Positions 5,653 to 64,000 of a DNA stretch of 64,000 nucleotides are shown piece after piece. Below the pieces are notes generated by a model. It made no database searches and had not been told where the DNA came from. It worked only from the letters and a program-made list of their open reading frames with translations. Source of the stretch: Halobacteria archaeon HArc-gm2 (GTDB lineage: Archaea > Halobacteriota > Halobacteria > Halobacteriales > Haloarculaceae); assembly GCA_025517465.1 (NCBI GenBank), contig JAOPKE010000006.1, positions 62,001 to 126,000 on the forward strand, read 5' to 3'. How positions within the stretch are numbered: the first letter of the stretch is position 1; each line of letters starts with the position of its first letter. Position numbers and translations under genes: made by a program.

Positions 5653-7590
5653 ATGGCACGACGAAGTGCGGAAGAGGAGACGCCCGACACGAGCAAAACA
5701 AATCGACGCGCGTTCATGAAGACGGTCGGCCTGGCCGCGACGGCCGCGGTCGGAACCGTCGCCGTCGGCAAGCGCGGATCGGCCGCCACGACCGTCGACC
5801 TGGCCGAGAAGGGGCTCACTAACGGCGATAACATCGACTCTTACCTCGAGGACTACTTCGTGAGCGGCAACGAAGTCCACATCCCGGCCGGCGAGTACGA
5901 GTACACCGGCGACGGCATCGGCGGCGACAAGTCCAACTGCGCGCTCGTCGGCTCGCCCGAGGGCGTCACGTTCAAGCGACCGGGCACGGACACCGTCATC
6001 CGGCCCACGCTCTGGGCCAGCTCCGGAACGGTCCGCATCGAGAACATCACGGTCAAGGGCAAGACCGGGGAGGAGCAGTCCCGCTGGCGCGTCGGCGCGG
6101 CCCCCGACGCGGAAGTCCAGATAGTCAACGTCAACATGCCCGACGGCACCGTCGACGGCTCGGACTCGACCGGTATCTACGCCGGCACTGACCACGCGGG
6201 CACGCTCACCGTCCGGCACTGCTACTTCTCCGACTTCGGCAACATCGCGCTGTACGTCTCCGACCCGTACGTCGAGGGCAACGGCAAGGTCGTCGTCGAG
6301 GACTGCGACTTCGTCAACACAGGCATGTCCGCGCTGCGCCTGGCCCCCGACAACAGCGAGGTGCGGCGCTGTTACTTCGAGTCCACCGAGAAGGCCGCCT
6401 CCAGCCACGTCGGCTGGAACCAGCGCGGCATCAAGATCGACGACGCCGGCGACGACGTCCTCATCGAGGACTGCGACTTCCTCTGGCACGACCCGGGGAC
6501 GATGGCGATCAACTTCGACGACAAGGGCGAGGGCGGCTCCGGCGTCATGCGGAACCTCCGCATCGAGAACCAGAGCTCCAACCCGACCTTCATCGACGAG
6601 TGGGGCGCCGGCAGCAACTGGGAGGGCGAGAACATCCACCTCACCGGCAGCGCCAGTCACGACGCGCCGAGTAGCTTCGACACGGTGACCGGCTCGAACG
6701 CGAAGTCCCCGAACACCGACTACGCCATCTGGACGCCCCAGAACGGCGACGGCAGCTCCAGCGGCTCCGACGGGTCGACTGCCACCGCGACGGCCACCGC
6801 CACCGCCACGGCCATCGCGACGGCCGACTCCGGTTCGTCCGAGGCCATCCCGGTCGACGGCCAGACGCTCGTTCAGGCCGAGAAGGGGACGGTCGGTGGC
6901 GACTCGAGCGTCCGCACCGTCCACGACGGCTACTCTGGCGACGGCTTCGTCGACCTCGAACCGCCGTCCGGCGGCTCAGTCGAGTGGACGCTCGACGTCG
7001 CAGCCGCCGGCACCTACGACGTCTTCTTCACCCACTCGCAGGGCGACAGCGCGGCCCGGACGGCCGACCTGACCGTCAACGGCGAGACCAGCCAGATAAC
7101 CTTCGAGCCGACCGGCGGCTGGAACACCTGGGAGCGCTTCGCGGTCACCGCGACGCTCGCGGAGGGCGAGAACGTCCTGCGCGTCGAGACGACCGGCGAG
7201 GACTCCGGTCACATCGACCAGCTCGAGTTCGTCCCCGTCGACGTCGAGACGGAGACGCCCCAGCAGACCGAGACGGAAACGGAGACGAGCGACGGCGGGT
7301 CGGGCGGCTCCGGCGACGTCGACTACGACACGGTCCTCGTCATCGACGGTACCGGCGACGTCGAGGAGACGGCCCGGTACACGTTCACCGTCTCCGGGGA
7401 CGTCGTGCGCGACGAGAACCGCTCGGAAGTTCGTGACGACGGCATCGCCTGGGACCGACTGTCAGACAGCGTCAGCGGCCAGCGCGTCGTCGGCGTCGTC
7501 GGCAACGGCGTCGACGCCTTCGGCTACACTGGGAACGTCACCGACATCGACATCCGGGGCGAGGCGACGTTCACCATCGTTCACCTGTGA
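5653..7590 (+). CDS. Tat-exported beta-helix protein with a carbohydrate-binding-like domain
   Basis: The 645-residue protein starts with a twin-arginine signal (NRRAFMKTVGLAATAAVG) and should be exported by Tat. Residues about 45-365 are parallel beta-helix repeats (VRIENITVKG, GTLTVRHCYFSDF, VLIEDCDFLW). A Thr/Ala linker near residues 376-395 follows. Next comes a beta-sandwich (about 400-535) with AEKGTVGG, GYSGDGFVDLEP and FTHSQGD, resembling CBM6/35 carbohydrate-binding modules. After a second Thr/Glu linker, a C-terminal domain (FTVSGDVVRDENRSE) resembles those on other haloarchaeal surface proteins. It probably acts on or binds extracellular polysaccharide. It shares its beta-helix type with the lipoprotein ending at 3289. 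Confidence 0.82.
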   Translation: MARRSAEEETPDTSKTNRRAFMKTVGLAATAAVGTVAVGKRGSAATTVDLAEKGLTNGDNIDSYLEDYFVSGNEVHIPAGEYEYTGDGIGGDKSNCALVGSPEGVTFKRPGTDTVIRPTLWASSGTVRIENITVKGKTGEEQSRWRVGAAPDAEVQIVNVNMPDGTVDGSDSTGIYAGTDHAGTLTVRHCYFSDFGNIALYVSDPYVEGNGKVVVEDCDFVNTGMSALRLAPDNSEVRRCYFESTEKAASSHVGWNQRGIKIDDAGDDVLIEDCDFLWHDPGTMAINFDDKGEGGSGVMRNLRIENQSSNPTFIDEWGAGSNWEGENIHLTGSASHDAPSSFDTVTGSNAKSPNTDYAIWTPQNGDGSSSGSDGSTATATATATATAIATADSGSSEAIPVDGQTLVQAEKGTVGGDSSVRTVHDGYSGDGFVDLEPPSGGSVEWTLDVAAAGTYDVFFTHSQGDSAARTADLTVNGETSQITFEPTGGWNTWERFAVTATLAEGENVLRVETTGEDSGHIDQLEFVPVDVETETPQQTETETETSDGGSGGSGDVDYDTVLVIDGTGDVEETARYTFTVSGDVVRDENRSEVRDDGIAWDRLSDSVSGQRVVGVVGNGVDAFGYTGNVTDIDIRGEATFTIVHL

Positions 7591-61234: not shown

Positions 61235-61852
61235 ATGGTCTGGGAAGCACTGCAGAACCTCGGTTTTTTCGCGCTCGGTACCGCCGCGACCGGCTGGATA
61301 GTCCGCTACGGTATCGAACGATTCTCCGAAGTCGCCGAGCGAGGTATCGAGCAGTTTTTCGACAAGGAGATCGCCCGGTACGAGTCCGAACTGAAGAACG
61401 AACAGGTCGTCTTCTCGCGGCTCCACGAGGAGCGGGCGACTATCATCATCGAACTCTACGAGCGATTCATCCTGTTCGAACAGGACATGCGGGCGTTGAC
61501 GAGGGAGTGGTCGGGCGATCCGCCGACAGACGAGCTGTTCCAGAAGGCGACGACGTCCGGCAACGACTTCGCGAAGTACTACATGGAGAACAAGATCTAC
61601 TTCCCGCCCGACACCTGCGACGCCGTCGAGAACCTTCAGGACGAGATGAAAGACGTGTTCGTCGATTACCGCGACGGCAAGACCTACGCGCACCGCGCCG
61701 AGCGCCCCGCGGACGTCGAGAACTGGCTGGCGAACTGGCGAGAAGTGACCGAGGACGAGGTTCCCGAACTCAAGCGCGAACTCGAGAACCATTTCCGGGA
61801 ACTCCTCGGCGTCGACCTGGACGGCGGGCAACTGGAGGGACTCGATGGGTGA
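61235..61852 (+). CDS. 205-residue membrane-anchored helical protein, function unknown
   Basis: The protein starts MVWEALQNLGFFALGTAATG, one hydrophobic helix. A predicted coiled coil follows (ERGIEQFFDKEIARYESELKNEQVVFSRLHEERA, residues about 35-70), then a helical soluble part with FQKATTSGNDFAKYYM. It is similar in type to bacterial and archaeal proteins annotated as hypothetical. It divides the SLC13 gene from the Mre11-like gene. I do not recognise its family. Confidence 0.65.
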   Translation: MVWEALQNLGFFALGTAATGWIVRYGIERFSEVAERGIEQFFDKEIARYESELKNEQVVFSRLHEERATIIIELYERFILFEQDMRALTREWSGDPPTDELFQKATTSGNDFAKYYMENKIYFPPDTCDAVENLQDEMKDVFVDYRDGKTYAHRAERPADVENWLANWREVTEDEVPELKRELENHFRELLGVDLDGGQLEGLDG

Positions 61853-61920: not shown

Positions 61921-61931
61921 GATTTATATAA
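61921..61931 (+). promoter_or_regulatory. TATA box of the Mre11-like gene
   Basis: GATTTATATAA lies 22-32 nt before the GTG at 61953, as expected for a leaderless start, and supports that start. Confidence 0.65.
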
Positions 61932-61952
61932 TGGGCTCCGTTGAGTGATAAC

Positions 61953-63923
61953 GTGACTCAAACCCGGGTCCTCCACGTCAGTGACACCCATCTCGGAAAG
62001 CGCCAGTTCGGCTCTGACCGCCGGCGTGACGACTTCGCGGACGCGTTCGAACAGGCGATCGGCGTCGCTATCGACCGCGACGTCGACGCCGTGATCCACA
62101 CCGGAGATCTCTTCGACGATTCCCGCCCGACGCTCCCGACGGTGCTCGGCTGTGCGAACACGCTCGATCCACCCGGCGAACGCGACATCCCGATCTACGG
62201 GGTCGTGGGGGCTCACGAACGGTGCAACGGCGACCAGTGGCTCGATCTCTTTCGCAGAACGAACGGCGTGACCAGGCTCGGCCGGGAGCCGAGCGTCGTC
62301 GGGACTACTGCGCTGTACGGCCTCGACGCGGTTCGCCCGGGCGACTGGCGAACGACCGACTTCACGCTCGAAGCGCCACCTCCGGGGGTCGACTGTACGA
62401 TCCTCTGCATGCACGAACTTCTCGAACCGCCCGTGGACGAACCCATCGCCGACTACGCGGTCGAGGACGTCCTCGACCGCGTGAATCTCGACCTCGACGG
62501 GCTCGCACTCGGCGGGTACCACGAGCCGACGAGTGCCCGCATCGACGGAACGGCCGTCTGGTATGCGGGTTCGACGGAACGGTCGGGAACGGACGAACCC
62601 GAGCCCGGCGTCGTTGAGCTCCTGGAGATCGACGGTGGCGACGTCGCGCGACGCCAGATCGAACTGGAGACGCGGCCCTTCGTGACCCGTACTATCACGT
62701 TCGGACGAGGTGACGGACTCGCACGCGTCCGCGACGTCCTCGACCGGCTCGATCTCACGGATGCGGCCGCGACGATCGAACTCGTTGACGACGGCGGTGT
62801 TGTCACGACGGACCGCGTGAAACAGCTGGCCCGGGACGCGGGCGCTGCCGTCGTCGACGTCGACGACCAGCGCGACGGCGTCGGCTGCGCCGGGCAAGCG
62901 CTGGACGAGCAGACCCGACGGACGGCACGGAACGCGATCGAGACCGCCGCTCTGCGTGGATTCCAGTGCCGAGCGAGCCGGGAGACTGCGTCCGAGCCAG
63001 CCACTGACGGGGCGGTGACAGACGACGAACCGACCGACACAGCCGGGACGGGGACTGACGACGGGGCGACCGACTCCGGACGGGCTGGGGACGTCCCCGA
63101 CGACCGAATGGACGAATACGAGGAGTTGACCGGAGTGCGTGAGCGCCTCGACGCCAGGATGTCGGAACGCCAGGCTGCCATCGACGAACTGCAGGCCGAG
63201 GTCGACGCGCTCGAGGCCGACCTCGCGACTGCCGTCACGGACCGCGGCGCGACGGCAGCGGCGTTCTTGCCGGCTGACCGTCCCCCGCGGTCTGTCACCA
63301 CCGACACCCGGGACGCCGTCGCGTCCCACGTCGAGACGCTCGCGGAGACGCTGGACGTCCGCTCGGCGAAACTGGCGCGGACGAACGCCGCGATCGAAGT
63401 CGAGCAGCAGAACGCGGCGAACGCGCGCGACGATATCGAGGAGACCGGGGCCGCGGTCGACCGTCTCGCGGAGCGGACCGACGAGTTCGAATCGGCGGTC
63501 GACGAGGCTCGCGAGGAACTGGCCGCCCTCCGGGAGGACTCGTCTGACGCCGGCCCGGATGCCGTGGCGGACGCGGCGGGTCGCGTCGAGGACCTGGAGG
63601 GAAACCTCGCGGACCTCCAGGCCGACCTCGCGGAGGAGCGCGCGGAACTGGCCGACGTCACGGAGGCACGCGACGAGGCCGAGGCCGCGATCGCGACGCT
63701 CGAAACCGAGCGCGCGGCGATCGAAGCCGAGATAGACGAACTGGAAGCGACCATCGACGAGGGCGAGGCCAGTATGGCGGCGTTCGGCGTCGTCGACGAG
63801 CTGCGAGGGCTGCTCGAAGCGCGAACCGGCGAACTCTCGGGGCTCCGGGAGGAGTACGCGGAGCTGCAAACCGAACGCGAGGCGCTGGACGCGGAGATCG
63901 AGGGGCTCACAGATGACGAGTGA
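61953..63923 (+). CDS. Mre11-like phosphoesterase with long C-terminal coiled coil
   Basis: The 656-residue protein has an Mre11/SbcD-type domain in residues 1-230: VLHVSDTHLGKRQF (Asp-x-His) and VIHTGDLFDDSRPTLPT are normal. The usual GNHD is GAHE (YGVVGAHERCNGD) and the usual GHIH is GGYH (LALGGYHEPTS). One Asn and one His ligand are thus replaced, and activity may be lost or changed; LCMHELLEPP retains its His. A low-complexity acidic linker (about 335-375) leads to a coiled coil (about 385-650) with Glu/Ala/Leu heptads. It could be structural, for example with an SMC-like partner. The gene after it is cut off by the window. Confidence 0.8.
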   Translation: MTQTRVLHVSDTHLGKRQFGSDRRRDDFADAFEQAIGVAIDRDVDAVIHTGDLFDDSRPTLPTVLGCANTLDPPGERDIPIYGVVGAHERCNGDQWLDLFRRTNGVTRLGREPSVVGTTALYGLDAVRPGDWRTTDFTLEAPPPGVDCTILCMHELLEPPVDEPIADYAVEDVLDRVNLDLDGLALGGYHEPTSARIDGTAVWYAGSTERSGTDEPEPGVVELLEIDGGDVARRQIELETRPFVTRTITFGRGDGLARVRDVLDRLDLTDAAATIELVDDGGVVTTDRVKQLARDAGAAVVDVDDQRDGVGCAGQALDEQTRRTARNAIETAALRGFQCRASRETASEPATDGAVTDDEPTDTAGTGTDDGATDSGRAGDVPDDRMDEYEELTGVRERLDARMSERQAAIDELQAEVDALEADLATAVTDRGATAAAFLPADRPPRSVTTDTRDAVASHVETLAETLDVRSAKLARTNAAIEVEQQNAANARDDIEETGAAVDRLAERTDEFESAVDEAREELAALREDSSDAGPDAVADAAGRVEDLEGNLADLQADLAEERAELADVTEARDEAEAAIATLETERAAIEAEIDELEATIDEGEASMAAFGVVDELRGLLEARTGELSGLREEYAELQTEREALDAEIEGLTDDE

Positions 63924-64000
63924 GCCGAATGGGGTTCCCCGCTCGGAGTCTGTCACCTCCCGTGGCAGATTTCGCGGCGCCAGTCGACGAGTGCGGTGGG
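63913..64000 (+). CDS. possible start of a further gene, cut by the window end
   Basis: An ATG at 63913 opens a frame without stop to the end (MTSEPNGVPRSESVTSRG and on), overlapping the coiled-coil gene by 11 bases. It is too short to identify. If real, it would be in one operon with the Mre11-like gene. Confidence 0.3.
   Translation, partial: MTSEPNGVPRSESVTSRGRFRGASRRVRW

Follow-up and report, generated by a model that had tools for sequence, protein, structure and literature searches.

Two genes of the Mre11-Rad50 machine appear to have become one at a haloarchaeal locus, raising the question of what a single chain of this kind is for, if it is for anything. The gene lies on contig C15 of genome G000, in the 64,000-nucleotide stretch analyzed here (the window), and it encodes a 656-aa protein that starts as an Mre11 and continues as a coiled coil (61953 to 63923, plus strand, GTG start). 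The interpretation we favor, by a modest degree of confidence and from sequence comparisons, is that deletions in an accessory operon produced the fusion a single time, and that the product is a nuclease-dead rod lacking the ATPase, kept for a structural or modulatory role.

An Mre11-like head with two altered metal positions

Residues are numbered from Leu1 at 61941, making the GTG at 61953 residue 5, unless stated otherwise. This GTG is likely the translation start, because the same codon opens the relatives and a TATA box, TTTATATAA (61923 to 61931, plus strand), lies 30 nt upstream of it, a spacing also found in the promoters of intact operons. The window copy has retained the ancestral TATA box and start. 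Since the antisense frame of the same interval is likewise open, the length of the open reading frame is by itself weak evidence, and the case for a real gene rests on homology and codon use.

Residues 5 to 312 (61953 to 62876, plus strand) form a head with a calcineurin-like phosphodiesterase fold and a capping domain, as judged by profile match, AlphaFold2, Pfam, and Foldseek. The head matched the Mre11_Halo profile with an E value of 7.9e-75 and Pfam Metallophos with 42.5 bits (cutoff, 21.5), and the best Foldseek matches to its predicted model were structures of Pyrococcus furiosus Mre11 (3dsd, E value of 3e-17; 1ii7, 4e-17). The protein shares its fold and most motif positions with canonical haloarchaeal Mre11, yet the fused protein scored 252 bits against the NCBIfam Mre11 equivalog model NF041030, under the cutoff of 550. 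The intact accessory Mre11 (Mre11L) of Natrinema hispanicum also fell below this cutoff, at 279 bits. Homology to Mre11L stops near residue 312, and the last ~80 residues of Mre11L, the Rad50-binding C terminus, are absent.

A first-pass annotation had described an Mre11-like frame at this position with GAHE and GGYH motifs, in which the DxH (SDTH), GDLFDD, and MHE (CMHE) motifs remained, and each of these points was confirmed. It had also counted two metal-site changes, using GNHD and GHIH as the expected motifs. Both changes are indeed derived in this gene, although GHIH proved to be the wrong reference, as haloarchaea have GDxH at this site. At codon 91 (62211 to 62213, plus strand), Ala replaces a metal-bridging Asn that is present in 43 of the 44 other aligned sequences; this residue corresponds to Asn84 of P. 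furiosus Mre11 in the 1ii7 structure. At codon 192 (62514 to 62516, plus strand), the equivalent of His206 in that structure, Gly has replaced the haloarchaeal Asp, turning GDYH into GGYH. Because 43 of 44 other sequences have Asp here, only the change from Asp192 to Gly is derived in the GGYH motif. The remaining metal-ligand positions are kept in the alignment with the 44 others, leaving an incomplete two-metal set. Motif changes also occur in an accessory Mre11L from an uncultured Halobacteria metagenome-assembled genome (L134:9995-11158), where GDN replaces GNH and GHIH replaces GDxH.

Close homologs with intact motifs, it had been argued earlier, would mark these changes as local or as an error. 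Such homologs exist, as the close operon relatives have GNHE and GDYH or GDLH. The changes are thus local to the window gene, but they are no isolated accident, because the fusion itself is common to three genera (see below). The head also has a long branch (0.42, compared to roughly 0.1 for sister copies) and departs from the family at 6 of 51 otherwise invariant sites. In trees it sits with the Natrinema-type group, the same placement as the coil.

These losses suggest that the window protein can probably no longer cut DNA. An alternative is a nuclease that is still active with an altered metal site, its coil reaching out to a substrate or partner. The persistence of DxH, GDLFDD, the catalytic His of GAHE, and the other His ligands would fit such an enzyme, as would the intact fold of the predicted model. 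However, two metal positions have been lost jointly, the protein has neither the Rad50-binding region nor any ATPase part, and orthologs dispense with the catalytic domain, making continued nuclease activity quite improbable.

A coil from the Rad50L partner of an accessory operon

The head leads to the origin of the gene. In 34 of 392 genomes of the order (the window genome included), a relative of the head was found that is closer to it than the housekeeping Mre11s are. At the approximately 30 loci examined, this relative opens a compact operon, mre11L-rad50L-nurA-herA, in which rad50L usually overlaps mre11L by a few bases and mostly encodes about 1,090 to 1,160 aa, followed by nurA (about 426 aa) and herA (about 620 aa). 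Several copies are plasmid borne, and the operon is present in about 9% of sampled haloarchaeal genomes (L093, L095, L052-L076, L096-L105, and L112-L133). A split herA or rad50L was seen in several operon loci, and a plasmid of Natrinema sp. DC36 (L094:12001-12824) carries mre11L alone, with a frameshift and an internal stop and none of the other operon genes, a case of independent decay.

None of the Mre11L proteins at the approximately 30 operon loci carries a coil of the window type. An alignment-query scan of genome contigs returned 39 loci, with the fusion in none, and a single-protein query scan of genome contigs gave no match; phage records held no relatives, and viral contigs held none that were close.

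The earlier description of a coiled coil of about 265 residues lacking a CxxC zinc hook held for the window copy, where the coil spans about 270 residues with no CxxC. Its source can be read from Rad50L. A linker (residues 313 to 387; 62877 to 63101, plus strand) contains ARNAIETA, matching Rad50L at about 334 to 341, and is otherwise acidic and modeled with low confidence. The first coil arm (residues 388 to 532; 63102 to 63536, plus strand) matches Rad50L residues 361 to 506, and the second (residues 533 to 660; 63537 to 63920, plus strand) matches about 636 to 767, within an alignment of window residues 524 to 660 to Rad50L 627 to 767. Both arms are collinear with Rad50L. Rad50L residues 507 to 626, including the zinc hook (CPKC, at 583), have been deleted at the joint between the arms, and both ATPase lobes are missing, so that only about 320 to 506 and 627 to 767 of Rad50L are present in the fusion.

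A generic coiled-coil match was considered and rejected. The arms scored 85 and 64 bits against Rad50L, compared to maxima of 34 and 37 bits among 2,000 heptad-preserving shuffles per arm and 55 bits among 77 real coil segments from other proteins, and collinearity argues against such a match as well. As judged from these alignments, the coil derives from the Rad50L partner of the operon and so is not of unknown origin. The fusion consists of an Mre11L head without its Rad50-binding C-terminal end, joined in frame to a Rad50L coil without ATPase lobes.

Structure prediction, a check proposed in the first-pass annotation, placed the head close to Mre11 and modeled the coil as long helices (AlphaFold2 and Foldseek). 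In the full AlphaFold2 model, helices span residues 383 to 438, 450 to 528, and 535 to 654 (counted here from the GTG at 61953), and the linker has low confidence. The AlphaFold2 prediction for the coil has a short loop between its helices at the former hook site and a mean pLDDT of 92. The best Foldseek match to the coil was an SMC coil segment (5xg2). An alignment of mixed head and coil fragments misplaced the fragments and was excluded from structure prediction.

The operon on plasmid NZ_CP082247.1 of Natrinema sp. SYSU A 869 offers a direct comparison. Its head is 66% identical to that of the window protein over residues 4 to 258, its Rad50L is 40 to 42% identical to the coil arms, and it has the same TATA box and GTG start. 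Unlike the window fusion, however, it has intact ligands, the Rad50-binding C terminus, a full Rad50L with lobes and hook, nurA, and herA. Compared to canonical haloarchaeal Mre11, the window protein has lost Asn91 and Asp192. Compared to Rad50 and SbcC, the fusion holds one piece of a Rad50-type coil and lacks the ATPase lobes and, in the window copy, the zinc hook. Lamassu LmuB and Rad50-like defense proteins are likewise Rad50-like coil proteins, and the full Rad50L partner matched the PADLOC LmuB model with an E value of 9e-43. The fused protein gave weak, coil-only matches in PADLOC; unlike Lamassu, it has no ATPase, and no LmuA or LmuC partner is present at the fusion locus. A search of mostly freely available literature turned up no account of a fusion of this type.

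One fusion shared by three genera

Could the fused gene be an assembly error or a recent local event? The fusion sits in a syntenic block together with a USP gene and a gene for a 205-aa protein before it and genes for a pentapeptide-repeat/ion-channel protein, a GerW-like protein, and one further product after it. This block is found again in two additional genera of the family, one that by contig match includes Halosimplex (genome G418) and one that by contig match includes Halorhabdus (genome G075). In total, the fusion locus was found in 3 of 146 genomes of the family. The G418 ortholog (L169:11251-12942, minus strand; 563 aa) has retained its first 28 residues along with the capping domain, the phosphodiesterase domain being deleted in frame, and its coil retains a CPTC hook. 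The G075 ortholog (L159:7685-8896, plus strand) is a 403-aa coil, also with a CPTC hook; its linker 5′ of the coil start contains one stop and a frame change, and no Mre11-like head was found. The C-terminal end of both coils is as in the window copy. The three coils form one clade with a support of 1.000, sister to the Natrinema-type Rad50L group (0.989), and the fusion therefore arose once and is no local assembly error. What the three copies have in common is nonetheless limited to the coil arms, since two of them keep the hook and the window copy alone has a complete head.

The first-pass annotation placed the gene apart from the normal mre11/rad50 pair, and this was borne out, as the housekeeping pair is separate, on contig C11. 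It also anticipated a partner gene beyond position 64000. The real joining of nuclease-like and SMC-like parts would be consistent with a scaffold whose partner, an SMC-like or rod-shape gene, lies just past the window. However, what follows the fusion is a gene for a pentapeptide-repeat protein that ends in an ion-channel domain (G000:C15:125996-128386, equal to L009:3497-5887), and no SMC, ASRP, or rod-shape gene was found up to C15:140000, the next 14 kb, making a partner of this kind exceedingly improbable. A whole-genome search with Rad50L found no partner encoded elsewhere, the only stronger places being the two halves of the housekeeping Rad50 and a weaker one being a large coiled-coil protein on contig C13.

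Function was not read from adjacency, because both neighbors of the fusion occur elsewhere without it. The 205-aa protein upstream (61235 to 61852, plus strand), which belongs to no known family, is at the locus in three genera and is also found alone; it occurs in 5 of 392 sampled genomes of the order, adjoins the fusion in G418, and is not clearly part of the fusion unit. Copies of the pentapeptide/ion-channel protein follow the fusion in G418 (75% identical) and G075 (68%), and more distant copies occur without it. Coupling of the fusion with either neighbor was rejected on these grounds.

Retention or decay of the rod

Whether the fusion is kept or decaying was judged from substitution patterns. 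Simple NG86 estimates, which saturation of synonymous sites has probably inflated in places, gave coil dN/dS values of 0.58 for G418-G075 (95% bootstrap interval, 0.45 to 0.78), 0.67 for the window copy and G418 (0.49 to 0.88), and 0.59 for the window copy and G075 (0.44 to 0.82), compared to 0.40 (0.21 to 0.75) for the retained capping domain and 0.31 to 0.41 for neighbor genes. Gaps in the coil alignment always comprise whole codons, the two large later deletions are both in frame, and all three copies preserve the coil reading frame, with no frameshift at synonymous distances of 0.5 to 0.7. These features speak for a coil protein kept by relaxed purifying selection.

The main rival explanation is slow decay, in which an operon relic with no function of its own sheds different pieces in each lineage. 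This remains a serious contender, though we consider it the less probable course. Different parts were indeed lost in the three genera, the dN/dS values are relaxed, the head has a long branch and broken invariant sites, and the operon degrades elsewhere, both on the DC36 plasmid and through split herA or rad50L genes. A retained role is also opposed by the rarity of the locus, by coil dN/dS values above those of the neighbors, and by the restriction of what is common to the three copies to the coil arms. Against decay, the dN/dS intervals all lie below 1, the coil has accumulated no frameshift over these distances while the later large deletions stayed in frame, and the window copy retains its promoter and start. 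Weighing both sides, we place a function for the fusion at somewhat better than even.

The comparisons show that deletions in the mre11L-rad50L-nurA-herA operon fused head to coil once and that losses removed two metal positions and, in frame, the hook from the window copy, the phosphodiesterase domain from the second copy, and the head from the third. On the favored reading, a retained rod, the product would be a nuclease-dead, ATP-independent protein whose coil arms would pair as an antiparallel hairpin, and the window copy may still dimerize or hold DNA through its Mre11-like head. Having no lobes, it would not undergo ATP-driven opening, and having lost ligands, it would probably not cut. 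It could be retained to bridge DNA, to tether DNA or proteins, or to compete with complete Mre11-Rad50 rather than to cut, and a tethering or competing rod seems the most likely use. The earlier proposal of a catalytically weak scaffold in one chain is compatible with this in that nuclease and Rad50/SMC parts are joined and catalysis is probably lost, and the scaffold idea fits because two orthologs lost the catalytic domain by other routes. The fuller claim, in which a single fusion and subsequent losses in three genera converted an Mre11-Rad50 machine into a single-chain rod that lacks nuclease and ATPase activity but is maintained by selection, appears to us evenly balanced.

Work on Mre11-Rad50 coils and hooks usually treats them only as components of a nuclease driven by ATP. 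A rod with a probably dead head, together with headless relatives, would provide a naturally occurring test of the roles that rod and hook have when neither ATP nor cutting is involved, including tethering, compaction, and competition with complete complexes. If the proposal is true, a Rad50-type coil can be useful even outside its complex.

The fusion also points to the accessory Mre11-Rad50-NurA-HerA operon in haloarchaea. Two recent papers describe nurA and herA as missing from Haloferax volcanii or not apparent in halophiles (PMC7776575 and PMC12977600). The four-gene operon itself may thus be underreported, although its genes are annotated singly in public records. The four consecutive genes do not occur at the fusion locus, from which nurA and herA are absent; in the window genome, NurA-like and HerA-like genes are found only on contig C1, where divergent HerA-like and NurA-like genes lie near each other (L151:128-1999 and 5669-6916).
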